Shown here piece by piece: positions 37,610-54,365 of a DNA stretch of 64,000 nt. Each line of letters begins with the position of its first letter. Position 1 is the stretch's first letter. The notes beneath the pieces were generated by a model, which was not told the DNA's origin, ran no database searches, and worked only from the letters and a program-made list of their open reading frames with translations. The stretch is from Oceanobacillus sp. FSL K6-2867 (GTDB lineage: Bacteria; Bacillota; Bacilli; Bacillales; Amphibacillaceae): NCBI RefSeq assembly GCF_037963145.1, contig NZ_CP150144.1:2108001-2172000 (forward strand), in the 5' to 3' direction. A program made the translations under genes and the position numbers.

Positions 37610-38983
37610 TTGAAAAAATTATTTACTGGCAGAATGATGGTGTTATTTGTCGTGATGCTTATGGTTGCCTTTGTGGCTGCTTGTTCATCAAATGATGATC
37701 AAGATGATACAAATGAAAAGCCAGAAGAGCAGACAGACTCGGGAAAACCTTCCGGTGACGACGCAGACGGTGCCATTTCAGGAGACTTAGAAATTCAGTA
37801 TTTTGTTGGTGGCTATGGTGATGCTTGGTGGAAGAAAGTTATTGCAGATTTTAAAGAGAAATACCCAGACGTCAACATAATTGAGCATGCTGGTCCAAAT
37901 ATTAACGAGGAAATGCGGAGTCGCTGGGTTTCCAATGATCCACCAGATGTCGTATACATTGATGGAGCCGGATCCAGCGAAACACAAATGGTGGAAGATG
38001 GTCAGTTGATGAATTTAACTGAATGGGTAGAAGGTATTGAGCTAGAGGGCGGCGACAAGTTAATGGATAGTTTCATTGTTGAGCCAGGCACATTTGACGG
38101 CGAAATTTATTCCTTGCCGCTAGTTTTTGATACATGGGGTACATGGTATGACAGAGCATTGTTTGAAAAAAAGGGTTATGAAGTGCCAACAGATTTTGAA
38201 AGCTTAATGGATTCGATGGCAGAGATTAAAGAAGCGGAAGGAATCGACCCTTATGTAACAAGTGGACAGCACCCATATTACTTCCTGCGCGGAGCACTTT
38301 ATCCGGCATTTGGTGCAGCAGGTGGAGAGGAATTGCTGGCTGATCTAATCACTGGTGCAGAAGGTGCTTGGATAAGTGAACCGGTGTTAGAGGTTATGAA
38401 GCGCGTAGAAAGAATGCAGCAGGAAGGAATGTTTGACTCAGGACTTGGTGCATTAAACCATACCCAATCACAAATGAATTTCTTGCTGCATGAAAATGCC
38501 TTTATTCCAGTCGGGTTCTGGCTGCCAAACGAAATGGCAAACGATATCCCGGAAGGTTTTGATTTTGGCTTTATTCCTTCCCCGATGCAGGCTGAGGATG
38601 AGAGCTATGCAATTGTACCAGACCTTCGTCCATTAGCAATTGCCGAGGAGGCGGAGAATCCGGAGGCGGCAAAAGCATTCGTGGAATTTGCATTTACACG
38701 TGAATATGCGATGTCATTCTCCGAGCATACGGGTGCCATGATGAATATTACTGGCGTGGACTTAACGCAAAACGAAAATGTTCCTGCATATCTAACGGAA
38801 GCAAATGCAATGATTAATGATCCAGACCAAGTGACGATTTATAATAAGCCACATCCAATGAGTGCTGATTTAGAGGTCCCTGTTGGAAATGCACTTATGT
38901 CACTCATGCTTGGAAATATGACTGCAGAGGAATTTGTTCAAGAAGCAGAAAAAGCTGCAGCTGAATATCGCGGCAGTAATTAA
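37610..38983 (+). CDS. Sugar ABC transporter substrate-binding lipoprotein
   Basis: Extracellular lipid-anchored sugar-binding protein of 457 residues, family 1 (MalE/UgpB-like). It starts with TTG behind AGGGGGAAAAG. The signal peptide ends in the lipobox VAAC (~24-27), followed by an acidic low-complexity linker (~30-60). The PBP core includes WWKKVIADFKEKYPDVNI, PDVVYIDGAG, LVFDTWGTWYDRALFEKKG and PEAAKAFVEFAFTREY. It is followed by two permease genes but no ATPase; such importers often borrow a shared MsmX-type ATPase. The downstream muropeptide-degrading enzymes suggest amino sugars or their disaccharides as cargo, by inference. Confidence 0.92.
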   Translation: MKKLFTGRMMVLFVVMLMVAFVAACSSNDDQDDTNEKPEEQTDSGKPSGDDADGAISGDLEIQYFVGGYGDAWWKKVIADFKEKYPDVNIIEHAGPNINEEMRSRWVSNDPPDVVYIDGAGSSETQMVEDGQLMNLTEWVEGIELEGGDKLMDSFIVEPGTFDGEIYSLPLVFDTWGTWYDRALFEKKGYEVPTDFESLMDSMAEIKEAEGIDPYVTSGQHPYYFLRGALYPAFGAAGGEELLADLITGAEGAWISEPVLEVMKRVERMQQEGMFDSGLGALNHTQSQMNFLLHENAFIPVGFWLPNEMANDIPEGFDFGFIPSPMQAEDESYAIVPDLRPLAIAEEAENPEAAKAFVEFAFTREYAMSFSEHTGAMMNITGVDLTQNENVPAYLTEANAMINDPDQVTIYNKPHPMSADLEVPVGNALMSLMLGNMTAEEFVQEAEKAAAEYRGSN

Positions 38984-39064: not shown

Positions 39065-39958
39065 GTGGTACAGTCTAAAAAACAAAAGTATTTGTTCCTA
39101 GCTTTTTGTTTAATTCCGACCTTTATCTTATTTGCTGTGTTTACCTTATATCCATTGTTTAGCGGGTTGTATTATTCCTTCTTTGATTGGTCGGGATCTT
39201 CGCAAAACAAGGAGTTTATTGGGTTGGCCAACTACATAAAATTAGCAAAGGATGCAATTATCCCAAATACCATTATGCATGATTATTTTCTGGTCGTAAC
39301 GAAAGTAATTGGGATTATGATTCTAGCACTGTTTTTTGCAGTTGCTTTAACCCAGTTAAAAATTAAAGAAGCACCTTTCTACCGAATTGTATTTTTCTTT
39401 CCTAACATTATGTCTGTTGTCGTTATTGGAATCCTATGGACATTTATTTATAATCCTAGTCTTGGATTGATTAACTCCGGCCTGGAATTTATCGGCTTGG
39501 AAAGCTTGGCAAAGCCATGGCTCGGCGATGAAACATGGGCGCTGCCAAGTCTTGTGCTCCCTTCCATCTGGGCTGGGATTGGTTTATTTATGCTCATGCT
39601 GATTGGAGGGATTTCCAATATTTCCAAAAGCTATTATGAAGCAGCAGAAATTGATGGGGCAAGTGAGTGGCAGCAATTTTGGAAGGTCACACTGCCATTG
39701 ATCTGGCCGCAAATTAAAATTTCAATTCTTTATATCGTCATTACAACGTTAAATGGATCGTTTATTATTGTCCAGGTAATGACGGGCGGCGGACCAAATA
39801 ATGCAACACATGTAATGGGATCATACCTCTATCAGCAAGCATTTGTCCAATACAATTTTGGCTACGGGGCAACCATTGGCGTCATGATTTTAATTCTATC
39901 CCTGATAACCGTGCTTATTCTCCAGTTCTTTATGCGTCGCGATAAAATTGAATATTAG
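39065..39958 (+). CDS. Sugar ABC transporter permease (MalF/UgpA type)
   Basis: First permease of the sugar importer, 297 residues with six membrane segments. It has a GTG start after GGGAGGTGG. The ATPase-contact motif is YYEAAEIDGASEWQQFWKVTLPLIWP (EAA-x3-G-x9-I-x-LP, ~190-215). It starts YLFLAFCLIPTFILFAVFTLYPL, as UgpA-like proteins do. It lies 81 bp after the binding protein and 70 bp before the second permease. Confidence 0.93.
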   Translation: MVQSKKQKYLFLAFCLIPTFILFAVFTLYPLFSGLYYSFFDWSGSSQNKEFIGLANYIKLAKDAIIPNTIMHDYFLVVTKVIGIMILALFFAVALTQLKIKEAPFYRIVFFFPNIMSVVVIGILWTFIYNPSLGLINSGLEFIGLESLAKPWLGDETWALPSLVLPSIWAGIGLFMLMLIGGISNISKSYYEAAEIDGASEWQQFWKVTLPLIWPQIKISILYIVITTLNGSFIIVQVMTGGGPNNATHVMGSYLYQQAFVQYNFGYGATIGVMILILSLITVLILQFFMRRDKIEY

Positions 39959-40028: not shown

Positions 40029-40871
40029 GTGAAGCGGAGTGTCGGACAAATTCTGGGAAGAGCAGGAATTCGCATCCCGTTAATTCTCTGGACAATAGCT
40101 GTATTGTATCCGATTTTCTGGATGTTTCTTGGTTCGTTTAAATCAAATGCTGAAATCTACCGCAACCCATGGGGCTTTCCAGAGTCATTCAGCCTCGACA
40201 ATTTTATGACAGCATGGACAAACTACAATATCGATACAAGTGTGTTTAATAGCTTAATGGTTACGGTTATTGGAACGGCTCTTACGTTAGTGCTCGCAAT
40301 TCCAACCGCTTATGCAATTGAACGGATTCAGTTTCGCGGCAGCAAGGCGTTGTTTCTATTATATATTTCAGCGATGATGATTCCGATGGTATTAGGCTGG
40401 ATTCCATTATTCTTTCTCTTAGCCGAACTTAATCTCTTGGACAATATTTATGGATTAGCAATCGTCTATGCGGTAAGCCAGCTTCCGTTTACGATATTTG
40501 TGTTAACGAGTTTTATTAGTACAATTCCGAAATCATTGGAAGAATCAGCTGCAATGGACGGTATGTCACCATATATGGTTTTATGGAAAATCATTACGCC
40601 ATTAAGTATGTCCGGGATTATTACCGTTACGATTATGAATGCAATCCAATTCTGGAATGAATATTTTATGGCATTAATCTTTTTGAATACAAGTGATAAC
40701 TATACCCTGGCATTGGCAATTGACTTTATTAGCAGTGAAGCACAATATACGAATGCATGGGGGACATTGTTTGCGAGCCTGGTGATTGCCATTATTCCAG
40801 TTATTGTTCTTTATGCGATTTTCCAAAGACGGATTGCGAAAGGTTTAACGGAAGGAGCAATTAAAGGATAA
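40029..40871 (+). CDS. Sugar ABC transporter permease (MalG/UgpE type)
   Basis: Second permease of the importer, 280 residues. It has a GTG start after AAAGGAGGAG. Six membrane segments are present, with the EAA-like loop LEESAAMDGMSPYMVLWKIITPLS (~175-198) and the family ending RRIAKGLTEGAIKG. It completes the membrane channel with the protein encoded before it. A terminator follows, so the importer forms its own transcription unit ahead of the secreted-enzyme cluster. Confidence 0.93.
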   Translation: MKRSVGQILGRAGIRIPLILWTIAVLYPIFWMFLGSFKSNAEIYRNPWGFPESFSLDNFMTAWTNYNIDTSVFNSLMVTVIGTALTLVLAIPTAYAIERIQFRGSKALFLLYISAMMIPMVLGWIPLFFLLAELNLLDNIYGLAIVYAVSQLPFTIFVLTSFISTIPKSLEESAAMDGMSPYMVLWKIITPLSMSGIITVTIMNAIQFWNEYFMALIFLNTSDNYTLALAIDFISSEAQYTNAWGTLFASLVIAIIPVIVLYAIFQRRIAKGLTEGAIKG

Positions 40872-40902: not shown

Positions 40903-40938
40903 TACGACAATCCATTACGGGTTGTTGTTTTTTTATGT
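40903..40938 (+). terminator. Terminator after the sugar importer
   Basis: A hairpin (ACAATCC, loop, GGGTTGT) is followed by a T-run of seven. It ends the ABC transporter unit. Confidence 0.75.
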
Positions 40939-41378
40939 AGAAAAACGGCATCTTTATTAGTCTTTCCAGCGTTTCTAATAAACGTCATTATGCTGAAAGT
41001 GTATGAAAACAGGCTTAATTTTATACATTATTAGGCTCATATCCATCCTCTTCGTCCAACCAATTTCCTATGCTATGCGTAATTTAATACTGTTATTCTG
41101 GGAATAAATATTCATTTTTATCAAATAATTCATTTTTTACATAATAGAACAACATTTTTAAATGGGGTTTGCTATTGTCTAGTTAATCTAAATTACTGCA
41201 CGGTTTTAACACCACTGTATCAATCACGGAAGGAGTGGCAGGTTATATAGGAGGACAGGCTATTATTGATTCACTTTTTTACAAATAATTGGCAAGCACC
41301 TGGTTATAACGTGTTGAGGTGGAAAATCCTCTCTACGGTTTTAATGCTGCAATTGAACGGAATAAAGGAGGAGTAGGT
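40939..41378. other. Non-coding gap before nagZ
   Basis: About 440 AT-rich bases without a convincing ORF. They should hold the promoter of the nagZ-tapA-sipW-tasA-hydrolase unit. I see no clear binding-site palindrome or riboswitch. Confidence 0.5.
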
Positions 41379-43412
41379 GTGAAGTTAAAATACGTGTTAA
41401 CCACTTTATCACTGACACTGCTTGTCGTCAGCATTCCCCTTTCCAGCTTGGCAAATCAGACAGGTGAAGCAGGAAACCATGACGCAATGATTCGGGAAAT
41501 TATGGAGGATATGACGATAGAAGAGAAGGTTGGTCAGCTATTTATTGTACATGTCTATGGTAAAACACCGACAGATCCAGCTTACGAGTTGATGAACATT
41601 GCGAATAATCGTGGAGGGAAAGACTTTAAGGAGGTTATTGAAAACTATCATATTGGCGGTGTGATTTATTTTAACTGGACCGACAATATTGGAACACCAC
41701 TTGATGTCGACCAAGTTAATGGATTATCAAATGGATTACAGGATATTGCGTTAGAACAAGACCAGGAAATTCCACTGTTTGTTTCCACAGACCAAGAGGG
41801 TGGGATTGTCCAGAGAGCAACGAGTCCTGCCACTGTCTTTCCAGGGAATATGGCACTTGGTGCGGCGAGACTGGATAATTATGCTGCACAAAGCGGAGGT
41901 ATTCTCGGAAAGGAGCTGGATGCCCTTGGCATTAATATGAACTTTGCTCCAACAGTGGATGTCAATATGAATCCAGAAAATCCGGTAATTGGTGTTCGCT
42001 CTTTTGGTGAGGACCCGGATCGTGTGTCCCGTCTTGGAGTTGCGCAAATCGAGGCACTCCAGAAAGAAAATGTGATTGCAACGGCGAAGCATTTCCCGGG
42101 ACATGGAGATACGGATGTTGATTCACATTATGGCCTGCCGATTATAGATCATGATTTGGAAACACTGCATGAAGTTGATTTGAAGCCTTTTAAGGATGCA
42201 ATCGATGCAGGTGTAGATGCCATTATGACAGGACATATTGTTGTTCCAGCATTGGATGACTCCGGTCTTCCAGCTACTTTATCTGAACCAATCCTTACTG
42301 ATTTATTACGTGATGAGATGGGATTTAAAGGTTTAATTATTACCGATAGCCTTGATATGTCTGGTGCAAATGTCTTGCCTCCCGAAGAAGTTCCAGTAGA
42401 GGCATTTAAAGCAGGAGCGGATATTCTATTAAATCCAGCAAATGTGGAGGAAGCTTATACGAGCATGCTTGAAGCTGTACAGTCTGGCGAAATTGGTGAG
42501 GAACGGTTAAATGAATCGGTTTATCGTATTCTACTGGCAAAAGCAGAAAAAGGCTTATTTGAAGATTCTTATGCAGAACCAGCGAATGTAGAAAATATCG
42601 GAACAGGAGCCAATTTGCAAACAGCTAAGGAGATCGCTGAAAAAAGCATCACGCTTGTTAAAAACGAGCAGGAAGCTTTGCCTGTATCCGATGGAGAAAC
42701 AGTGCTTGTAACTGGGCCATCAGTCGCGAAGCCTGACCTGATAGCAGAATTATTCGATGAAAAAGGAATAAGTGGGGATAGCTTTGCAACGGCAACAAAT
42801 CCGACAGCAGGGCAAATTGATCGTGCTGTGGAGCTTGCTGAAGCAGCGGACAAAGTGATTATCACGACCTACACGGCAAACACAAGTAGTCAGCAGCAAG
42901 CATTGGTTGAAGCATTGCAAGCTACTGGGAAGCCAATTATTGTATCTGCTCATCGGAATCCATATGATGTGATGGCCTTTCCAGATGTGGATGGATATGT
43001 GGCCAGCTACAGCTATTTAGATGTATCCATAGAGGCAGTTGCCGGTGTGCTGGCAGGTGAAATTAATCCATTTGGGAGCTTACCTGTCACAATCCCGGGG
43101 CACTATGAAATGGGAGATGGGCTGGACTATGTTGATATTCCACATAGTGCTGCTGGAATGAAGCAGCTTGTCGATCAATTGGATGAAGCTGGAGAAATAT
43201 CGAATGAAGAAGCAGGCCGTGCACTGAAGCTGCACTTAACTGCAGTAGCCCAATATGAGGATCGCAAGCTGCCTGATAAGGTGGTTAAACATTTGGAAGG
43301 CTTTCGAAAACTGCTCGATCAGCAACAGGATAGTGAGGCAATTTCAAAGAAAGCTCATAGTTATTTAGATACAGAGGGATTGCGATTAATTGAACATTGG
43401 ATAAAAAATTAA
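41379..43412 (+). CDS. nagZ: Secreted beta-N-acetylglucosaminidase NagZ (GH3) with FIMAH-like C-terminal domain
   Basis: Removes terminal GlcNAc from peptidoglycan fragments outside the cell. Start is GTG at 41379 behind AAAGGAGGAG, giving 677 residues; the longer frame to 41319 lacks a site. Layout: signal peptide (~1-26), GH3 barrel (~30-400) with KHFPGHGDTDVDSH (~237-250, general acid/base H250) and nucleophile D323 in IITDSLDM, the second GH3 domain (~400-590), then an ~82-residue helical module (~595-677) shared with three enzymes downstream. No wall-anchor motif is seen, so that module may be the targeting part. The tapA-like gene follows after 36 bp. Confidence 0.93.
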   Translation: MKLKYVLTTLSLTLLVVSIPLSSLANQTGEAGNHDAMIREIMEDMTIEEKVGQLFIVHVYGKTPTDPAYELMNIANNRGGKDFKEVIENYHIGGVIYFNWTDNIGTPLDVDQVNGLSNGLQDIALEQDQEIPLFVSTDQEGGIVQRATSPATVFPGNMALGAARLDNYAAQSGGILGKELDALGINMNFAPTVDVNMNPENPVIGVRSFGEDPDRVSRLGVAQIEALQKENVIATAKHFPGHGDTDVDSHYGLPIIDHDLETLHEVDLKPFKDAIDAGVDAIMTGHIVVPALDDSGLPATLSEPILTDLLRDEMGFKGLIITDSLDMSGANVLPPEEVPVEAFKAGADILLNPANVEEAYTSMLEAVQSGEIGEERLNESVYRILLAKAEKGLFEDSYAEPANVENIGTGANLQTAKEIAEKSITLVKNEQEALPVSDGETVLVTGPSVAKPDLIAELFDEKGISGDSFATATNPTAGQIDRAVELAEAADKVIITTYTANTSSQQQALVEALQATGKPIIVSAHRNPYDVMAFPDVDGYVASYSYLDVSIEAVAGVLAGEINPFGSLPVTIPGHYEMGDGLDYVDIPHSAAGMKQLVDQLDEAGEISNEEAGRALKLHLTAVAQYEDRKLPDKVVKHLEGFRKLLDQQQDSEAISKKAHSYLDTEGLRLIEHWIKN

Positions 43413-43448: not shown

Positions 43449-43913
43449 TTGAGTTATTTTTTGCGAATTGGAGTGCGGCTATTTGCGCTTTTCTATCTGA
43501 TTTTTTTGATCATACACCAGGTGCATTCCCCGACAACGGCTTTGTTTACCGATACCACCAAGGTTGCTGGAAATATAAAGGCGGGCAGCTATCAAGTGGA
43601 AGAGATGGAAACGAATGAAGAGACGAAGGAGGAGCAGGCTGAAACAGTTGAAGAAACAGCAGACAATGAAGAAGCAGTAGAAGCAGATGATTCAGAAGAA
43701 GAGAGAGCTGATACGGAGAACGAGCAAGGGGAAAATGAGGGGTCATCAACCGGAGCGGCTGAGTCAACAGAGAAAGAGGATGAGCAAGAAACGAACGATG
43801 AGGAATTAGAAAAGGAATCTGATGATGATGAAAAAGAATCAAAACAGGAAGAAGATATGAATGAAGATGAAATGGGAGAAGCAGTGAGCCCACCTGAGCA
43901 AGGGAGTGAATAG
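43449..43913 (+). CDS. tapA: TapA-like matrix fibre assembly/anchor protein
   Basis: Product of 154 residues from a TTG behind GGGAGG. It has an N-terminal membrane/signal segment (~4-24), then TTALFTDTTKVAGNIKAG (~29-46). This resembles the post-cleavage start of SipW-processed TasA/CalY proteins (compare FAYFSDTETTNNTFAAG in the tasA gene below). The remaining ~105 residues are almost all Glu, Asp, Ser, Asn and Thr. It is far shorter than Bacillus TapA and lacks its folded core, so it is a TapA-position analogue more than a clear orthologue. It is followed after 5 bp by sipW. Confidence 0.65.
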   Translation: MSYFLRIGVRLFALFYLIFLIIHQVHSPTTALFTDTTKVAGNIKAGSYQVEEMETNEETKEEQAETVEETADNEEAVEADDSEEERADTENEQGENEGSSTGAAESTEKEDEQETNDEELEKESDDDEKESKQEEDMNEDEMGEAVSPPEQGSE

Positions 43914-43918
43914 AACAA

Positions 43919-44482
43919 ATGCGTATAAAAAGTATATTAAAAAAATGTACTAGCTTTCTATCAACTATTTTATTTATCGTCTTGTTATCTGTCCTTTTTC
44001 TCTCTCTTGCGTCTAAAGCAGCAGGGAATGAGGTAAATCTGTTTGGATACCAAGTAAAGTCTGTGCTGTCGGGTTCCATGGAGCCTGATATTCAAACAGG
44101 ATCGCTTATCGCAATTCAAACAGGAGGGGAAGGAGAACGATTTCAGGAAAACGATGTGATTACATTTCAAACAGAAGAAGATGTATTGGTAACGCACCGA
44201 ATTGTCGAAGTAAAGCATGACGGACAGCAATATGTGACGAAGGGCGATGCGAATAATGGGGTAGACCGAAATCCAGTGCTGGCAGAGAACATTGTCGGGC
44301 AATATACCGGGATTACGATTCCTTATTTAGGCTATGTCATGAATTTTACCAGCTCACGCGAAGGTGCAGCATTACTGTTTATTTTTCCAGGCATCCTATT
44401 GATTGGCTATTCCTTGATTACGATAAGAAGCACGTTAAAAGAAGTGAAACAGCTCATGAATGAAAAAGAAATCCGAGCATAA
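43919..44482 (+). CDS. sipW: Signal peptidase I of the SipW (ER) type
   Basis: Membrane protease of 187 residues that matures TasA-family proteins. Two membrane helices (~12-35 and ~150-170) enclose the catalytic domain. The catalytic Ser lies in VLSGSMEPDI (~52), and the second residue is histidine (VTHRIVEV) instead of lysine, which marks the SipW/ER class. The acid lies in TKGDANNGVD. Its partners are encoded on both sides (tapA-like, tasA-like), an order equal to the Bacillus tapA-sipW-tasA matrix operon. Confidence 0.94.
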   Translation: MRIKSILKKCTSFLSTILFIVLLSVLFLSLASKAAGNEVNLFGYQVKSVLSGSMEPDIQTGSLIAIQTGGEGERFQENDVITFQTEEDVLVTHRIVEVKHDGQQYVTKGDANNGVDRNPVLAENIVGQYTGITIPYLGYVMNFTSSREGAALLFIFPGILLIGYSLITIRSTLKEVKQLMNEKEIRA

Positions 44483-44512
44483 TCAGAACAAAAATTAGAG
44501 GAGGAATTCGGG

Positions 44513-45100
44513 ATGAATATTAAAAAAAAATTAGGGACAGGTATTATTTCGGCAGTGCTTGGTTTAACACTGGTTGGTGGAGGAACGTTTGCTTATTTTA
44601 GTGATACGGAAACAACGAACAATACATTTGCTGCAGGGACATTAGATTTAGCGGTGAATCCGACACAAATTATTGAGGTGGATAATATCAAACCAGGTGA
44701 TTCCATGATTCGCGACTTTGAACTACAAAACAATGGAACATTGGATATCGATAAGGTGCTGTTAGAAACAGAATATACGGTGAATGATGCGTCGGGTGAT
44801 AATACAGAGGACTTTGGCGAGCATATCCAAGTAGAATTTCTTTATAATGCAGACAAATTGGATGAGGTAATTTATGAAACGACGCTTGCAGAGCTAAAGT
44901 CGCTGACACCAGAGGCTGTAAATGAGAATGTCTTTTATCCGCTGCTTGGTGAAAATGGTTTGCAGGTTGACTCCATTGATGACTTAGTCGTTAAATTTAA
45001 CTTTGTTGATAATGGAGAAGACCAAAATCAATTTCAAGGGGATTCCTTGAATTTGGAATGGACATTTACTGCCACACAAACAGCTGGTGAAGATAAGTAG
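44513..45100 (+). CDS. tasA: TasA/CalY-family matrix fibre protein (camelysin, M73)
   Basis: Secreted fibre-forming protein of 195 residues. The signal peptide (~1-27, GIISAVLGLTLVGGGTFA) is followed by YFSDTETTNNTFAAGTLDLAV, the diagnostic start of mature TasA/CalY proteins, then NIKPGDSMIRDFELQNNGTLDIDKV. The rest is a beta-sandwich. It is shorter than TasA (261) and nearer CalY in size. It should be cleaved by the SipW encoded just before it. The gene lies 35 bp before the serine hydrolase gene, so the matrix genes and the wall-recycling enzymes probably share one transcript. Confidence 0.92.
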   Translation: MNIKKKLGTGIISAVLGLTLVGGGTFAYFSDTETTNNTFAAGTLDLAVNPTQIIEVDNIKPGDSMIRDFELQNNGTLDIDKVLLETEYTVNDASGDNTEDFGEHIQVEFLYNADKLDEVIYETTLAELKSLTPEAVNENVFYPLLGENGLQVDSIDDLVVKFNFVDNGEDQNQFQGDSLNLEWTFTATQTAGEDK

Positions 45101-45135: not shown

Positions 45136-46617
45136 ATGAAGAATCGGTTACTGATGGTAATAACCATTTTAATGACGATTGTTTTATTATTTCCTCATGC
45201 GGAATTAAGCAATGCGTCCATTGCAGAATCAATAGTAGTTGAAGCAGACCGTGCCCAGATGCTCCAGCAGCCGCTGGATGATTTGGATGATGAAATAGAA
45301 GAAGCCTTGGCGGATAAGGTAATGCCTGGAGCTGTTGTATTAATTGCTAGAGATGGAGAAATCGTCAAGCACCAGGCATACGGATATGCAGCACGTTACA
45401 CGGACGATCAATTTACCGAGATGGATAATCCTGTTCATATGCAGGAAGAAACCATCTTTGATGTGGCCTCTATATCGAAGTTATTTACTGCAACAGCAAT
45501 TATGCAATTATGGGACCAGGGTGAATTTGAATTGGACGATCCTGTTTATTGGTATATTCCTGAATTTGCTGCACAAGACAAGGAGGATGTAACGATCCGC
45601 CATCTCCTGACACATACGTCCGGGTTTAGGCCGAGCACGACAGAACCGATTCATGAAATGGAAGGAACACGTGAAGAGCTGTTAGATTTTGTATTAAACG
45701 AGCCATTACAAAATACACCAGGTACAGCTTATTTATATAGCGATGTTGATTATATTACGTTGGGTGTATTAATCGAACGCGTTAGTGGCGAGCGGCAGGA
45801 TGACTTTGTGAGAGAGTTTATTACAGAGCCTTTAAACATGACGGATACGATGTATGCTCCATCAGCTGATTTACAGAACCGTATTGCGGCTACGGAATAT
45901 CAGCCGTGGACGAATCGCGGGATTGTTTGGGGAAGTGTGCATGATGAAAAGGCTTGGGCGCTTGATGGAGTAGCTGGACATGCTGGGGTATTCAGCAGTG
46001 CGCCAGATCTTGCTGTCTTCGCCGAGATGATGCTGAATAAAGGGAACCATGAAGGAACTCAAATTCTTTCAGAGGAAGCTGTCGAGCTGATGAATACGAA
46101 TTGGAATGAAGCATTTCCAGGCCAGGATCAAGGACTTGGCTGGGAACTTAATCAAGAATGGTATATGGATGATCTGGCAGAGTTGAATACGATGGGGCAT
46201 ACCGGCTATACCGGAACGTCGATTGTCGTTAGTCCAAATAAAAAATCGGTTACAATCCTGCTGACTAATCGCGTCCATCCGACACGTGATACGGTCTCAA
46301 CGAACACGATTCGCAAAAAAGCAGCAGAAAAGACGGCAGACTCCATTCATGCATGGAATGCAGCAGGGATGCAAATGATGGTGGAGCGGCTTGATGAAAG
46401 AGGTGCATTTAATCTGTCATCTGATGCCCATGCTCTCCAGCTGCATTTAACAGCAATTGAGCAATTTGAAAATAAAGGAGACCAAGCAAAGGTCATAAAG
46501 CATTTAGAAGGCTTGCAGCAATTAATTGATTATCTTTTCATACATGAGGGAATTGACAATGCGACATATGATGATTTACAACGAACAGCAGATTATTTAC
46601 TAGGAAAATGGCAGTAA
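45136..46617 (+). CDS. Secreted serine hydrolase (class C beta-lactamase fold, YbbE-like) with FIMAH-like C-terminus
   Basis: Extracellular hydrolase of 493 residues. It has a signal peptide (~1-27), then a penicillin-binding/beta-lactamase fold (~40-400) with S112-x-x-K115 (VASISKLF), the YSD variant of YxN at 201-203, and H355-T-G (GHTGYTG). The YSD form and overall start (VMPGAVVLIARDGEIVKHQAYGYA) recall YbbE-type esterases found beside nagZ and ybbC in Bacillus. It is likely a peptide- or ester-cleaving enzyme in murein turnover rather than a true beta-lactamase. The last ~85 residues (~408-493) are the same helical module as in NagZ, GGT and NamZ here. Confidence 0.88.
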   Translation: MKNRLLMVITILMTIVLLFPHAELSNASIAESIVVEADRAQMLQQPLDDLDDEIEEALADKVMPGAVVLIARDGEIVKHQAYGYAARYTDDQFTEMDNPVHMQEETIFDVASISKLFTATAIMQLWDQGEFELDDPVYWYIPEFAAQDKEDVTIRHLLTHTSGFRPSTTEPIHEMEGTREELLDFVLNEPLQNTPGTAYLYSDVDYITLGVLIERVSGERQDDFVREFITEPLNMTDTMYAPSADLQNRIAATEYQPWTNRGIVWGSVHDEKAWALDGVAGHAGVFSSAPDLAVFAEMMLNKGNHEGTQILSEEAVELMNTNWNEAFPGQDQGLGWELNQEWYMDDLAELNTMGHTGYTGTSIVVSPNKKSVTILLTNRVHPTRDTVSTNTIRKKAAEKTADSIHAWNAAGMQMMVERLDERGAFNLSSDAHALQLHLTAIEQFENKGDQAKVIKHLEGLQQLIDYLFIHEGIDNATYDDLQRTADYLLGKWQ

Positions 46618-46824
46618 TTTTATCGTGCAGCAAGGAAGTTGCTTTCTTGCTGCATGCATTTTTTTCAATATAATGTTCGTGCTTATGCTGTCTGGTGTGC
46701 TATATGGATGTGGATAAGGGGAAATGCTGATGTTTATAGGAAATCTGATATTCAAGGGAGTAATGCTGGAATTCACAATTAGCAGTGCGTGCAATGGGTG
46801 TTTGATTACAAAAGGAGGAATAAC

Positions 46825-49503
46825 ATGAACGGCAAACAAAAATTATTATCTATTTTCATGGTCTTATTACTATTCTTTAGCGTATGTATCCCTGTTTCTT
46901 TAGCTGATGCAGTTGATCCAGATGATAATACGGGATACGAGCCGGAAAACCCGGGTATTTTAGATGAACAAACCGATGAGGGTGACAAGGGGATGGTGGT
47001 TACTGCACATCCTCTAGCTTCTGAGGTTGGGGCAGATGTTCTAAGACGGGGTGGCAATGCAGTGGATGCTGCAGTAGCCATTCAATTTGCTTTAAATGTT
47101 GCAGAACCAATGATGTCGGGTATTGGTGGCGGCGGCTTTTTCATGTATTATGATGCCCAAACTGAGGATATATCGATTATTAATAGCAGAGAGCGGGCTC
47201 CTCAAGGGGCAACGCCGGATATGTTTTTAGATAAAGAGAATATTGTAACAGATCCAGGAAAATTTCATCTAGGTGCAATTGATATGAATCCAGATGGTGA
47301 GGATAAGCAATTTCATATTGGTGAAGTGAATGTTACCGATCTTGACGGATCAGATGAGGAAGCGACAGTTTTTGACTATGATTTTACTGGTGAAGCTGGG
47401 GAGCCATGGAATCCTGATAAGTTTTCCATACTTGAACGTGGAACAACTTTTCAGCTGGATGAAGATGGCGGTTTAATTAACTTTGGACCTCCAACTGGCA
47501 GTAATTCATCTTCTTATGGTCAAACAACAGCTGTGATGGACGAGGTTGAGGATAGTGAGCTTTTCATTCGCTTCCGTACCGACGATCCCGACGATGACCG
47601 ACGTTTGCGTTTATGGCTGCGATCTGATGAATACCGTTCTACTGGAACAACCTATGTCAAAAATGGCTACGGGGTTGAAATTAATACGAAGACAAAGGAA
47701 ATAAGATTAATTCAATCAAAGGATTCAACGAGCTCAACACTTGCTACATTTCCATATGAGGAAACAACCGATTGGCAATCGCTGCGTTTCCGTGTTGAAG
47801 GCGATGAATTAAAGGTTCGCTTATGGGAGGATGAATCTGAAGAGCCAGATGACTGGAATATCGAAACCTTTGCTGGTTCGGTAATTCCATTTTCAGAAAG
47901 GGTACAAAGTGGTAACTCTGTTGGTGTTCCGGGTACATTAAAAGGATTGGAAGAAGCTTTGGATAAATGGGGAACAATGGAGCTTGGTGAATTGATTCAG
48001 CCTTCAATAGACATGGCTGAGGAAGGAATCGAGGTTAATTGGGTTTTAGCAAATGCTATCGCAGGTAACCAAAGTAAATTAGAGCGTACAGCAGCAAAAG
48101 ATGTGTTTCTTCCAGATGGTGAGCCATTAGAAGAAGGAGAGACTTTAGTGCAGGAAGATTTAGCGAAAACATTTAAGCTGATACGCGATCAAGGGACAGA
48201 TGTTTTTTACAACGGGGAAATTGGTGAAGCATTAGCGGAAGCTGTTCAGGAATTTGATGGCAGCATGGTAAAAGAGGATTTAAGGAATTACGACGTGACC
48301 GAAGATGAAGCAGTTTGGGGAGATTATCTTGGCTATGATATTGCTTCCATGCCGCCACCAAGCTCTGGGGGATTAACGATGCTGCAGCTCTTAAAAATGT
48401 TTGAGCAGCTTGATCTCGCTGGACATGATATCAAATCACCGGAGAAATACCATTTCATGGCCGAAGCGATGCATCTTGCTTATGCCGATCGAGGAGCATA
48501 CATGGGTGATCCGGAATATGTTGAAGTGCCAAGAGATGGTCTGCTTCATCCGGATTATGTGGCAGATCGGATTGAAACCATCTCACCTGATCATGCTAAT
48601 GACAATGTACAACCAGGCGATCCGTGGGCGTATCAGGGAGGAAGTGCACCAACCATTGCCCAGCAGGTGGATGATAAACAAGAAGGACAAACAACCCATT
48701 ATACGGTAGCAGACCAATGGGGAAATTTAGTCTCCAATACGACGACAATTGAACAGCTATTTGGCTCAGGCATTATGGTGCCGGAATATGGCATTGTACT
48801 GAATAATGAATTGACCGATTTTGATGCTGCTCCAGGCGGTGCAAATGAGGTGCAGCCAAATAAACGGCCGCTAAGCAGTATGACACCAACGATTGTGTTA
48901 AAAGATGGCGAGCCATTTATGACGGTTGGTTCTCCAGGTGGAGCAACGATTATAACGTCTGTCACGCAGACAATTGCTAATGTTATCGGCTATGGCATGC
49001 CAATAAAGGATGCAATTGAAGAGCCGCGTATATACAGTAATAGTTACCCAACAATACGCTGGGAGCATGGCATTTCGGATACTGTACGGCAACTGCTTGA
49101 AGAGAAGGGACACGCCTGGGAGGAAAGTCCAACAGAGATCGGAAATGTTAATAGCATTGTTTTAGATGAAGGGACGTTTATTGGAGCAGCAGACTCAACG
49201 AGAGAAGGCACTGCAATCGGTTTATCTGCAGAGGATTTCCTTAGCATTGATGGCTTAAAATCCCGTGTTGAGCAATTACAAGCAGATGATGAAATCTACG
49301 AAGAGCATGTTGCGCGATTGCTTCTTACCCACCTAACGACAGTAGGTCATTATGAGGAAAAGGAGAAAATGGATAAAGCTATCAAGCATCTGGAAGGATT
49401 TAAGCAGTTGTTAGATCAGCTAAAAGATGCAGACTCTATTTCGGAGCATGCCCATGAGACGCTGGGGAGCAGTGCAGAGGAGTTGCTTGATATGTGGCAG
49501 TAG
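46825..49503 (+). CDS. ggt: Gamma-glutamyltransferase with inserted beta-sandwich domain and FIMAH-like C-terminus
   Basis: Secreted Ntn-hydrolase that cleaves or transfers gamma-glutamyl groups, possibly from muropeptide gamma-D-Glu links or glutathione. Start at 46825 behind AAAGGAGG gives 892 residues: signal peptide (~1-28), the first large-chain part (ending DMFLDKE, ~140), about 215 foreign residues (~142-358), then the family resumes at SVGVPGTLKGLEEAL. The autocleavage/catalytic Thr is T623 (TTHYTVADQWGN), with NNELTDFD, RPLSSMTPTIV and GSPGGATII beyond. The final ~83 residues match the shared helical module. The insert (WLRSDEY, KNGYGVEINTKTKEIRLI, WQSLRFRVEGDELKVRLW) looks like a lectin/LamG-type carbohydrate-binding sandwich. 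Confidence 0.9.
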   Translation: MNGKQKLLSIFMVLLLFFSVCIPVSLADAVDPDDNTGYEPENPGILDEQTDEGDKGMVVTAHPLASEVGADVLRRGGNAVDAAVAIQFALNVAEPMMSGIGGGGFFMYYDAQTEDISIINSRERAPQGATPDMFLDKENIVTDPGKFHLGAIDMNPDGEDKQFHIGEVNVTDLDGSDEEATVFDYDFTGEAGEPWNPDKFSILERGTTFQLDEDGGLINFGPPTGSNSSSYGQTTAVMDEVEDSELFIRFRTDDPDDDRRLRLWLRSDEYRSTGTTYVKNGYGVEINTKTKEIRLIQSKDSTSSTLATFPYEETTDWQSLRFRVEGDELKVRLWEDESEEPDDWNIETFAGSVIPFSERVQSGNSVGVPGTLKGLEEALDKWGTMELGELIQPSIDMAEEGIEVNWVLANAIAGNQSKLERTAAKDVFLPDGEPLEEGETLVQEDLAKTFKLIRDQGTDVFYNGEIGEALAEAVQEFDGSMVKEDLRNYDVTEDEAVWGDYLGYDIASMPPPSSGGLTMLQLLKMFEQLDLAGHDIKSPEKYHFMAEAMHLAYADRGAYMGDPEYVEVPRDGLLHPDYVADRIETISPDHANDNVQPGDPWAYQGGSAPTIAQQVDDKQEGQTTHYTVADQWGNLVSNTTTIEQLFGSGIMVPEYGIVLNNELTDFDAAPGGANEVQPNKRPLSSMTPTIVLKDGEPFMTVGSPGGATIITSVTQTIANVIGYGMPIKDAIEEPRIYSNSYPTIRWEHGISDTVRQLLEEKGHAWEESPTEIGNVNSIVLDEGTFIGAADSTREGTAIGLSAEDFLSIDGLKSRVEQLQADDEIYEEHVARLLLTHLTTVGHYEEKEKMDKAIKHLEGFKQLLDQLKDADSISEHAHETLGSSAEELLDMWQ

Positions 49504-49631: not shown

Positions 49632-51155
49632 ATGAAAAGGCTGTTCTTAATAACAATTACGCTATTAGTTGTGCTAGGATCGTTAACTGCAATTGCAGCC
49701 AATCGGCTCAATGCTGATGTGGGTGACGACAGTGAAAGGTCACTCAAGCTTGGGGTAGAGGTTTTGCTTGAGCAGCAAAAGGACCTGATTGAAGGAAAAC
49801 GTGTCGGATTAATCACGAATCCAACAGGTGTGGATCAAGACCTAAATAGCATTGTTGATCGATTATTTCATGATCCGGATGTCGAGCTGACCGCTTTGTA
49901 TGGACCTGAGCATGGCGTGCGTGGGGATGCACAAGCAGGTGATTATGTCGAATACTATATCGATGAACAGACAGGTTTACCAGTGTATAGCTTATATGGT
50001 GAAACAAGGAAACCGACGCCAGAAATGCTCGAGGATATCGATATTTTACTATTTGATATTCAAGATGCAGGGGCAAGATTCTACACGTATATCTACACAA
50101 TGGCCTATGCGATGGAGGCTGCAGCAGAAAATGATATCGAATTTGTTGTACTCGATCGTCCGAATCCGTTAGGCGGCAATCATGTAGAAGGACCAGTACT
50201 TGATCCGGAATACGCTTCTTTTGTCGGGAATTACCCGATTCCGCTTAAGCATGGCATGACAGTTGGTGAGCTGGCATATTTGTTTAATGAGGAATTTGAA
50301 ATTGGAGCAGATTTAACCGTTGTCGAAATGGATGGCTGGAAGCGCGGTATGTATTATGATGATACTGATTTGGAGTTTGTGCTGCCCTCACCGAATATGC
50401 CAACGTTAGATACGGCGCTTGTCTATCCTGGAGCAGCGCTGATTGAAGGGACGAATATTTCGGAAGGACGTGGTACGACAAAGCCATTTGAACTTATTGG
50501 TGCTCCGTTTGTAAATAGCACCGAGTACGCAGCGGCATTGAATGAGTTGGAATTGCCTGGTGTCACATTTCGAGCAGCATCATTTACGCCGACCTTTTCC
50601 AAACATAGTGGTGAATTAAGTCATGGCGTACAGATTCATGTTACGGATAAACGAGCATATGAGCCTGTGATTACAGGACTCTATATTGTAAAAACGTTGC
50701 ATGACATGTACCCGGAAGACTTTGAATTCCGAGCAGAAAACAGCGCTGGCATCTCTTTCTTTGATAATCTCATCGGCAATGGCTGGATTCGTGAAGCGAT
50801 TGAAAATGGGGATTCCGTAGAAGAAATGGCAGCTGCTTGGCACGAGGATCACCAGGCATTTAAAGAGGTTCGCAGAGAATACCTTCTTTACACGATGAAC
50901 ACGGAGCAATTGAAGCAAAACATCGGTTCTCTTCAACAATCCGGTGATATTGAAAAGGAAGCGGAACGTAAATTGCTCCTGCATCTTACAGCTGTCGAGC
51001 AATTTGAGGAGAAAAAGACTGCAGATAAGATTGCTAAGCATATGCAAGGTTTTCAGCTGCTTTTAGATCAGCATAAAGACGCATCGAGCATATCAGATAA
51101 AGCATATCAAGCATTGAGCAGTGATACGACGGATATGATTGCGCAGTGGGATTAG
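49632..51155 (+). CDS. namZ: Exo-beta-N-acetylmuramidase NamZ (YbbC, DUF1343) with FIMAH-like C-terminus
   Basis: Removes terminal MurNAc from peptidoglycan fragments; YbbC-type proteins were shown to have this activity (family GH171). The 507 residues show a signal peptide (~1-23), then VGLITNPTGVDQDLNSIVDRL, the catalytic-region motif YGPEHGVRGDAQAG with E93, FDIQDAGARFYTYIYT, LDRPNPLGG and PSPNMPTLDTALVYPGAALIEGTNISEGRGTTKPFE. The last ~84 residues (~423-507) are the shared helical module. With NagZ it can strip glycan chains alternately to single sugars, which the upstream ABC importer might take up. Confidence 0.93.
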   Translation: MKRLFLITITLLVVLGSLTAIAANRLNADVGDDSERSLKLGVEVLLEQQKDLIEGKRVGLITNPTGVDQDLNSIVDRLFHDPDVELTALYGPEHGVRGDAQAGDYVEYYIDEQTGLPVYSLYGETRKPTPEMLEDIDILLFDIQDAGARFYTYIYTMAYAMEAAAENDIEFVVLDRPNPLGGNHVEGPVLDPEYASFVGNYPIPLKHGMTVGELAYLFNEEFEIGADLTVVEMDGWKRGMYYDDTDLEFVLPSPNMPTLDTALVYPGAALIEGTNISEGRGTTKPFELIGAPFVNSTEYAAALNELELPGVTFRAASFTPTFSKHSGELSHGVQIHVTDKRAYEPVITGLYIVKTLHDMYPEDFEFRAENSAGISFFDNLIGNGWIREAIENGDSVEEMAAAWHEDHQAFKEVRREYLLYTMNTEQLKQNIGSLQQSGDIEKEAERKLLLHLTAVEQFEEKKTADKIAKHMQGFQLLLDQHKDASSISDKAYQALSSDTTDMIAQWD

Positions 51156-52924: not shown

Positions 52925-53090
52925 TACTCCCACCACTTAATTCCCTTGGAAATTTGAAGTGTGGGTTTCTGAGGTATCGACCTTCTAGATGGCGATTAAC
53001 CACCAGTGGAGTTGACACATTAGTGTGCTAAAAACACCCAACCCCGCTATCCCTTTGGTCTTGCCTTTGGGATTACTTTTATTTTATTAC
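52925..53090 (-). ncRNA. Candidate omega RNA (reRNA) at the tnpB 3' end
   Basis: TnpB nucleases are guided by an RNA transcribed from the gene's 3' end through the element's right end. Here the ~150 bases after the stop are rich in inverted repeats (CCCAAAGGCAAGACCAAAGGG near 53057, a second stem at 52929-52968) and lie in the expected place and direction. The guide would be the host sequence just beyond the right end. Confidence 0.5.
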
Positions 53091-54365
53091 TAAAGCTACG
53101 GGCTTTAATAATGCTTCATTGCTCCAAAGAGGATTATTATATGCTTCCTTGATAACTTTCCGCATGATATTGGCAGCTCCATTTACATCAGCATTGATCA
53201 TTTTCCCGCTTTTCGACCGGTAAAGACCACGCTTGATTCGCTTACCTGAAAACGATTGATTTGACTCATTTTTGCCGTAAGCAGGAATCGGATCAAGATC
53301 AAGGAAACTTGCTTTGGAGGTATACGATTCTTCTGTAAGAATGACTCGAATGCCATGTCTTTCTGTTTTGTACGTTATCATTTGAATAAGTAAGCTGTGA
53401 GGAATCGTCGTAAAGGATTGGTTATTCACGTTGCCCGTACGTGCGTTTTGTTTCCAATCTTTATTTTGACCAATGATGATTGTGTCGATATCCTCTTCTA
53501 AAGCAATTTTCTCCACTTGAAAACTTGCTTTATGAAGCAAATCCTTGATTTGATTAAAACGCTTGCGAGCTATTTTTTCTAAGCGTTTTGATGTAAACGG
53601 ACCTTCGTTTGCTTGTTTTCCTTGTCGAAGAATACCTGTATAATGTGCTCTTTCCTGGTTATATCGTTGATTCACAGATTTGATATTTTTGCCCTTCACT
53701 AGAACCGGTCTCCTACCGGTATTCGTGACAATGGTTGCAAGATTATCAATCCCTAAATCGACAGCTATTAAACGGTTTTTCGATTCTTTCATTTCTGGTT
53801 CCCTAAGATCTTGAAAAATTAATTCCACGACATAATGGCCATACCTTGGAATCACTCGAATTTGCTTCAATTTCCCCTCAGTAAATCCCAGTTTACCAAT
53901 ATTTAATCGGTCTTTTGTTTGGGGAAACTTCAGGAATTTAGTTTCCTTGATGACACAATCCTGGTTTGAAAAGGAAACATCTTTTTCTTTTGCACGGCAA
54001 TACCCAGGAATATTAGGACGTGCTTTAAACTTCGATGGATTGGATTTATATTCCTGTAAAGCACCATAAAACGATTTCCAATTTTGAAATACGGTTCGCA
54101 TTATTGCTTGACTGGATTGTATTGGTAACGAACGATAATCGTTTTGTGAAATCGATTTAAAAAGTGCGTTCAAAAAATAGTAATCAACATATGGATTTAC
54201 TTCCGTAGGCGCACCAAATAAATGACAGTGGATTTTCTTTCGCTTCTCTACCGGTTTTGTTTCTTCTTTAGCTTTTTTCCTTTCATACGCTATCATTTGA
54301 TTATCGTTCATTTTAGGCAATTGTTTTTGAATGGTATTCAATACCTCTTTTTGAGGCGGTTGCAA
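53079..54365 (-). CDS. tnpB: TnpB RNA-guided nuclease (IS605 OrfB family)
   Basis: Ancestor-type relative of Cas12, 428 residues. The RuvC acidic residues are visible: D in LIAVDLGIDNLATI (~202), E in VILTEESYTS (~342) and D in INADVNGAANI (~400). The usual zinc-finger CxxC pair near the end is missing: after TSKASFLDLDPIP the sequence runs into GKNESNQSFSGKRIKRGLYRSKSG, as in a known zinc-less branch. The start is unclear: the frame extends upstream to a TGA at the place where a normal TnpB start (QVYTALTQEKEL) would be, with no ATG. The N-terminus may have lost its start codon, and TTG at 54365 is the first usable one. Confidence 0.85.
   Translation of the reverse strand: MQPPQKEVLNTIQKQLPKMNDNQMIAYERKKAKEETKPVEKRKKIHCHLFGAPTEVNPYVDYYFLNALFKSISQNDYRSLPIQSSQAIMRTVFQNWKSFYGALQEYKSNPSKFKARPNIPGYCRAKEKDVSFSNQDCVIKETKFLKFPQTKDRLNIGKLGFTEGKLKQIRVIPRYGHYVVELIFQDLREPEMKESKNRLIAVDLGIDNLATIVTNTGRRPVLVKGKNIKSVNQRYNQERAHYTGILRQGKQANEGPFTSKRLEKIARKRFNQIKDLLHKASFQVEKIALEEDIDTIIIGQNKDWKQNARTGNVNNQSFTTIPHSLLIQMITYKTERHGIRVILTEESYTSKASFLDLDPIPAYGKNESNQSFSGKRIKRGLYRSKSGKMINADVNGAANIMRKVIKEAYNNPLWSNEALLKPVALVIK

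Follow-up and report, generated by a model that had tools for sequence, protein, structure and literature searches.

The cellulosome is a cohesin-dockerin scaffold. TasA fibres have been studied as biofilm glue. In Bacillus subtilis, the first donor strand is thought to be supplied by TapA, the partner of SipW and TasA in the tapA-sipW-tasA operon, according to the accessible part of PMC9674648. The muropeptide-rescue genes of that species have a cluster of their own, murQ-murR-murP-amiE-nagZ-ybbC (PMC5061867, available in part), which agrees with an earlier sequence-only reading of the DNA studied here that had called the two gene groups separate loci in Bacillus. Here we describe a stretch of 64,000 nucleotides from Oceanobacillus sp. 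FSL K6-2867 (the window; contig NZ_CP150144.1, positions 2,108,001 to 2,172,000), in which a small gene, sipW and tasA stand between nagZ and amiE. The four enzymes of the cluster, NagZ, AmiE, GGT (gamma-glutamyltransferase) and NamZ, all carry a FIMAH domain (PF22888; 62.7-72.5 bits against a cut-off of 24.8), in each case C-terminal. The sequence-only reading had supposed that the fibres may hold or present the enzymes, and the FIMAH domain common to all four, which co-segregates with a specific TasA clade, suggests a candidate mechanism for such enzyme-holding fibres. We propose that FIMAH attaches secreted enzymes to a fibre made of a dedicated TasA, a claim we consider evenly balanced between right and wrong; that FIMAH enzymes and TasA are functionally coupled in some way is far more probable than that.

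The core of the cluster, within a source genome that is a single contig of 4.40 Mb, consists of the following features:

41319..43412, plus strand: NagZ, GH3 beta-N-acetylglucosaminidase with C-terminal FIMAH (PF00933 311 bits; PF01915; FIMAH 69.8 bits)
43152..43394, plus strand: FIMAH domain of NagZ (74.1 bits)
43449..43913, plus strand: putative mini-TapA, with a possible SipW-type signal and donor-strand-like N-terminus, with an acidic tail and without the TapA fold (sequence features and TapA model score)
43919..44482, plus strand: SipW signal peptidase (NF046067 232 bits, cut-off 190)
44513..45100, plus strand: TasA/CalY-family fibre subunit of the FIMAH-linked clade (PF12389 308 bits; tree; structure model)
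45136..46617, plus strand: AmiE-like N-acetylmuramyl-L-alanine amidase of the beta-lactamase/PBP4B family with C-terminal FIMAH (PF00144 262 bits; FIMAH 62.7 bits)
46363..46602, plus strand: FIMAH domain of AmiE (66.5 bits)
46789..49503, plus strand: GGT with C-terminal FIMAH (TIGR00066 592 bits, cut-off 358; FIMAH 72.5 bits)
49246..49488, plus strand: FIMAH domain of GGT (78.7 bits)
49632..51155, plus strand: NamZ exo-beta-N-acetylmuramidase with C-terminal FIMAH (PF07075 309, PF20732 199, FIMAH 64.5 bits)
50904..51143, plus strand: FIMAH domain of NamZ, a four-helix bundle (model pLDDT 93.9)

The coordinates, the single strand and the gaps of 36, 5, 30 and 35 bp separating nagZ, 'tapA', sipW, tasA and the hydrolase amiE were exactly as first described, and the names sipW and tasA held as well, the PF12389 match being full-length (cut-off 22.5). 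The catalytic domains of NagZ, AmiE and NamZ (PF00933, PF00144 and PF07075/PF20732) share this one cluster and are predicted to form a muropeptide-rescue set; AmiE scored 229 bits with the PBP4B model, whose cut-off is 385.

The first line of evidence for coupling is genetic linkage. The whole source genome holds only five FIMAH genes, and four of these, of unrelated enzyme folds, are in the cluster. The gene order nagZ-small gene-sipW-tasA-amiE recurs at six loci (L021-L024, L026 and L030), which lie on the same six contigs as L101-L106, from O. profundus, O. polygoni, V. salexigens, O. jordanicus, Virgibacillus sp. AGTR and O. manasiensis; GGT is absent in the two Virgibacillus. The sequence-only reading had named relatives in which the two gene groups are never adjacent as a finding that would count against it, and what the relatives display is repeated adjacency. 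Of the 40 PF12389 genes in eight single-contig genomes, 19 have a FIMAH gene no more than 5 kb away, and none of 20,000 circular shifts reached this number (mean 0.89, at most 10). This test covers eight of nine genomes (G090, which has no PF12389, was omitted), counts no hit below the cut-off and takes one broken gene, hit in two halves, only once; like our Fisher statistics, it ignores relatedness among genomes. Moreover, when loci were chosen by similarity to the window TasA alone, FIMAH was present within 8 kb in 67 of 75, the 75 being the distinct loci among the top 80 of 369 matches, some of which overlap, share a genome or end at contig ends. Among the eight loci without FIMAH, four are canonical tapA loci.

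Starting from the enzyme gives the same picture. AmiE with FIMAH has a TasA neighbour at 23 of 27 loci (22 of 26 excluding the window), one of them (L032) a weak match, versus 0 of 14 loci for AmiE without FIMAH. This sample comprises all 26 other loci in which the match reached the FIMAH end and 14 of the 36 in which it stopped short, with locus labels, as for the 75 loci above, taken from the best phmmer hits to window proteins and TasA presence counted from locus maps. A PF12389 gene exists elsewhere in eight of the 14 genomes with FIMAH-free AmiE and is absent from six, which gives a restricted comparison of 23/27 versus 0/8. The NagZ, NamZ and GGT proteins at the AmiE loci carry FIMAH in 49 of 51 versus 0 of 17 cases, nearly all or none per locus. 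Across 159 genomes of the family, 68 have both FIMAH and PF12389, 18 FIMAH only, 17 PF12389 only and 56 neither, and PF12389 is present in all 34 family genomes whose FIMAH genes number five or more. Two other families also show the pairing, with a murein set among the instances (L196, L197 and L199). Elsewhere the pair accompanies other secreted enzymes, namely phosphatases, nucleases, peptidases and glycosidases. We therefore rejected the idea that FIMAH is confined to the murein cluster: genomes have up to 53 copies, on very mixed enzymes, counts in FIMAH-rich genomes being lower bounds (one survey of the matches covered about 150 of 163). FIMAH/TasA loci also occur in a record titled Bacillus subtilis DE0224 (L111, L118 and L122), a title that may be a misnomer.

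A second line of evidence comes from the FIMAH sequence itself. The residues H31, K46, H50 and L57 (numbered on the NamZ copy) form a signature found in full in 135 of 148 FIMAH domains from fetched loci holding a TasA, and in 123 of 146 further domains from named genomes. In genomes without the TasA clade, it is found in 1 of 54 domains (1/19, 0/16, 0/18, plus L080), a set for which the classing of G049 and G054 relied on weak PF12389 E-values and not on retrieved genes, and in which the 54th domain, L080, was reassigned from the linked loci; the core residues L28, L32, L75 and W86 are mostly kept there. The signature also follows the clade at a distance. It is present in 17 of 22 domains located at least 13 kb from any TasA in genomes with the clade, these being 20 domains hand-picked from one list, the fifth FIMAH of the source genome and one domain of G028 (for G074, clade membership rests on PF12389 hits only). 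In G028, the TasA-adjacent FIMAH has the signature and the distant copy is without it, while the TasA-free loci of G057, G058, G104 and G154 add a further 7 of 11 domains with it (the TasA clade of G104 is unassigned). This is the behaviour that a docking surface would predict, although a co-inherited subfamily would look alike. One could thus imagine that TasA, SipW and FIMAH enzymes simply travel as cassettes, linked by shared inheritance without a joint function, and the several close copies in single genomes (G153, G155 and G156) and the mixed cargo fit such traffic. We regard this as improbable, as the linkage holds through many gene orders and the domains far from any TasA mostly retain the signature.

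The TasA proteins beside FIMAH genes are themselves distinct. In a tree of 83 TasA sequences, one clade (support 99/84) holds 44 of the 47 FIMAH-linked genes and a single additional gene, but not one of the 29 TapA-linked genes; the three FIMAH-linked genes outside are those of L025, L027 and one of L028. After the addition of 17 genes, support for the core-set clade was 100/94 and only the G157 gene joined it, with wider clades including G028b, G030a and G027a at 99/93 and 99/78 and the canonical genes outside all of them. Loci L061-L100 were picked for canonical or FIMAH context, and the tree thus speaks to clade structure, not frequency. TasA positions specific to the clade are E108, Y111, E118, E134 and D157. 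The window TasA, 95-96% identical to the O. profundus and O. polygoni proteins, has the B. subtilis TasA fibre 8aur as the best match of its model in the Protein Data Bank (PDB; Foldseek E 3e-10), at a mean pLDDT of only 66.7 and with residues 1-42 disordered; by homology, it would be expected to form donor-strand fibres. A second TasA clade (L025, L027, L028, L079 and L091) adjoins a 532-553 aa protein, the C-terminal part of which resembles an M4 neutral protease. At L146, L150 and L164, TasA adjoins a 500-aa Tat-type protein, presumably PhoX-like, and two of these loci lack both FIMAH and canonical TapA. An association of TasA relatives with secreted enzymes may be more widespread.

Could the TasA relative be a helper in folding, secretion or processing, with FIMAH as the tag that it recognizes? 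A metalloprotease activity was once ascribed to camelysin, and the position of FIMAH is tag-like, since in 152 of 162 proteins no more than 25 residues separate its end from the C-terminus, and no protein has two copies. However, in the other 10 the domain is internal and is followed by 219-516 residues, so that there it is not a cleaved end tag; we accordingly rejected an always-cleaved C-terminal sorting tag. The window TasA sequence, with one histidine in all, has no HExxH zinc-protease motif, and its fold matches a fibre subunit. A helper role seems to us improbable, about on a par with the cassettes. Two of the internal domains are in L028:11906-18135, where two proteins with different N-terminal enzymes (M14 and M6) both have an M28 peptidase after FIMAH.

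The sequence-only reading had taken the three genes after nagZ for an amyloid or biofilm-matrix operon, tapA-sipW-tasA. An ordinary matrix operon that landed by chance among wall-recycling genes would have this gene order, and SipW and TasA are genuine. Nevertheless, the claim lacks support, as the same genome has its canonical tasA-tasA-tapA-sipW genes elsewhere, near 3.588 Mb, and a chance landing is very improbable considering also that the small gene fails the TapA model, that the window TasA sits in another clade and that 67 of the 75 related loci are likewise beside FIMAH genes. The canonical locus (L010:8934-13643) has two TasA genes, TapA and SipW, and in addition a gene for a protein of 214 aa that bears an LPTTA motif and ends in a membrane segment, together with a sortase-like gene on the opposite strand (both labels assigned by eye).

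For the small gene at 43449-43913, the label tapA was borne out only in part. The gene reached 18.3 bits with the TapA model TIGR04087, compared with a cut-off of 80 and with 115.3 bits for the genome's true TapA (L010:11543-12403). With the SipW-type leader model TIGR04088 (cut-off 19), it scored 15.9 bits, its L097 relative 28.8 and its L021 relative gave no match. The score of its alignment with the TasA donor segment was equalled or passed in 79 of 5000 shuffles. The window protein has no cysteine beyond residue 45 and 47% D/E in its tail, and thus lacks the two cysteines of the folded TapA beta-sandwich. Among ten small genes listed from FIMAH loci, nine have no cysteine after residue 45 and the tenth has one, within the leader, while the tail D/E content is 31-51% in every one; by comparison, all 13 canonical TapAs listed have two cysteines (the listing covers genes ending near sipW that passed a loose motif filter). 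In B. subtilis, residues 44-57 of the secreted TapA are enough for biofilm, as stated in the available part of PMC10151520. Together with the proposed role of TapA in supplying the first donor strand, the weak leader match, the donor-like stretch and the acidic tail lead us to infer that the small gene encodes a mini-TapA. Such a protein would look like nature's own version of the shortened TapA(1-57), which still supports B. subtilis biofilm (PMC10151520, same part).

Several observations weigh against docking on TasA. At four of the 27 FIMAH-AmiE loci no TasA was found, and at two of the 23 with TasA (L025 and L027) it belongs to the other clade. PF12389 is missing from 18 of 86 FIMAH-positive genomes in the family and from 19 of 30 outside it (in two of the 30, FIMAH is below the curated cut-off). 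FIMAH therefore does not always require TasA, an idea that we rejected; docking on TasA cannot be its general role, and TasA cannot be its sole partner. In the 11 genomes outside the family with both, adjacency was seen in two, G466 and G376, and in the B. subtilis control PF12389 occurs without FIMAH. The signature is missing from 5 of the 22 distant copies in clade genomes, is present in full in G090, which has no TasA, and is nearly so in G075. E39 and K46 may pair within the domain as a salt bridge, in which case the signature may denote a subfamily rather than an interface, and a pair inherited as a unit would yield the same statistics. In addition, sipW is absent within 3.5 kb of 28 of 47 FIMAH-linked TasA genes, for which a SipW encoded elsewhere would be needed. 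Finally, the one solved FIMAH-type structure found, in the N. novalis GH92 enzyme (7NSN), is a four-helix bundle described as 'of unknown function' in the accessible part of PMC10167667, where deletion of the bundle halved binding to yeast wall, pointing to a carbohydrate or wall target. Of the four-helix proteins with a fold match to FIMAH, only 7NSN was kept, because helical bundles score high by chance and 7NSN matches by sequence too. A single-sequence FIMAH search of the PDB gave no usable match, a protein search for a deeper FIMAH set gave two matches only, and among 20 fetched stretches one was without a FIMAH match.

These points bear on the strongest competing explanation, namely that FIMAH has the cell wall or a surface glycan as its target and that TasA is co-encoded because both are of use in matrix life, with no physical contact between the two. 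It would account for the genomes with FIMAH and without PF12389, inside and outside the family, and for the yeast-wall result; it also fits the two FIMAH-free AmiE proteins that were scanned, in which an InhA-MAM/F5-8-C-like C-terminal module stands in place of FIMAH. However, it leaves unexplained why one TasA clade is linked and not the canonical one, why FIMAH-free AmiE never had a TasA neighbour in its 14 loci and why the signature tracks the TasA clade at a distance. Furthermore, the FIMAH of 7NSN belongs to the other residue type, with H31, K46 and L57 absent by alignment. We consider wall or glycan binding unlikely, though clearly less so than a helper role or a cassette.

The features that bear on transcription, together with the importer genes, are as follows:

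37610..38983, plus strand: sugar-binding lipoprotein of an ABC importer, NgcE-like but below the model cut-off (PF01547 83 bits; TIGR03851 219 bits, cut-off 400)
39065..39958, plus strand: ABC importer permease (PF00528)
40029..40871, plus strand: second ABC importer permease (PF00528)
40904..40928, plus strand: terminator-like hairpin 5' of nagZ (-13.1 kcal/mol; equivalent at L021:4622-4646)
46624..46656, plus strand: terminator-like hairpin 3' of amiE, followed by a T-run (-21.9 kcal/mol; equivalent at L021:10348-10378)

The order on the plus strand is thus ABC importer, hairpin, nagZ, small acidic gene, sipW, tasA, amiE, hairpin, GGT and namZ. A transcript shared with the wall-degrading enzymes had been suggested, with separate promoters and terminators between the genes as a finding that would oppose it. 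We found no terminator-like site in the four gaps and two weak ones within amiE, and the hairpins flank the unit, in L021 as in the window. The likely transcript runs from nagZ through amiE; one shared with NamZ is not indicated, since the hairpin at 46624-46656 stands between amiE and both GGT and NamZ. A promoter-like site (9/12 match) overlaps the first gap, between nagZ and 'tapA', and a clean promoter signal 5' of nagZ was dropped as a candidate, such sites being no commoner than in shuffled sequence. NagZ likely starts at the GTG at 41379, after AAAGGAGG, and GGT at the ATG at 46825. Some 200 residues appear to be inserted in the N-terminal part of GGT, where the model match resumes, at model position 71, only from residue 368; judged by eye, the insertion resembles a LamG-type sandwich. 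An IS605 OrfB/TnpB-like gene lies near the cluster (53079-54365).

If docking occurs, we envisage a fibre-docked set of enzymes that harvests muropeptides extracellularly. The dedicated fibre subunit, of the TasA family, would be processed by its own SipW and would then polymerise by donor-strand exchange, while mini-TapA, consisting of a donor strand and an acidic disordered tail, would start and anchor the fibre. NagZ, AmiE, GGT and NamZ would be exported by ordinary Sec signals and attached to the fibre by their common C-terminal FIMAH bundle, and the sugars and peptides would be freed, and perhaps captured locally, beside the ABC importer encoded just upstream. A broader version holds that FIMAH of the H31/K46/H50/L57 type is the docking module for a dedicated TasA branch, that this is a general Gram-positive, cellulosome-like enzyme display on a donor-strand fibre, with mini-TapA as its natural minimal starter, and that many Bacillaceae use it to harvest peptidoglycan, phosphate, nucleic acid, protein and glycan; taken jointly, we lean slightly against these claims. 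If docking is true, TasA fibres would gain a second job as enzyme scaffold. Moreover, the signature names both partners and the residues to test, which makes a long list of tagged enzymes directly testable. In the full-text literature, most subscription papers being outside the coverage, we found no paper that treats FIMAH as a docking domain or links it to TasA, the two papers that matched on FIMAH as a word being unrelated, and among the matches listed for TasA with scaffolds or anchored enzymes, CalY paralogues with secreted enzymes, dockerin/cohesin and SipW/peptidoglycan hydrolases none pointed to such a link in its title or the opening of its abstract.

Compared with known systems, the locus resembles tapA-sipW-tasA of B. 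subtilis in having SipW, a TasA-fold SipW-type subunit with a donor-strand-like N-terminus, and a small, possibly SipW-type partner gene in first position. It differs in that the partner is without the TapA fold, TasA is of a separate clade, FIMAH enzymes surround the genes and a canonical locus exists elsewhere. We take the ybbC of the B. subtilis rescue cluster to be NamZ. As in that cluster, the AmiE, NagZ and NamZ catalytic domains are found together (PMC5061867, in part). In contrast, the window enzymes all have FIMAH, GGT and an ABC importer are added, TasA and SipW are inserted, and murQRP was not among the window open reading frames scanned next to the cluster. The sipW-calY-capP genes of B. 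cereus differ too, CapP being a different, larger protein, and the part of their description that is available does not mention FIMAH enzymes. The 7NSN bundle differs in its residue type and, in the portion of PMC10167667 at hand, its function is given as unknown. A Pfam scan found no dockerin on the four window enzymes and no cohesin in the window TasA. Nonetheless, if docking is true, the system would be like the cellulosome in combining a scaffold with one small, usually C-terminal module borne by many unrelated enzymes, and unlike it in having FIMAH where the cellulosome has dockerin, and a self-assembling fibre as scaffold.

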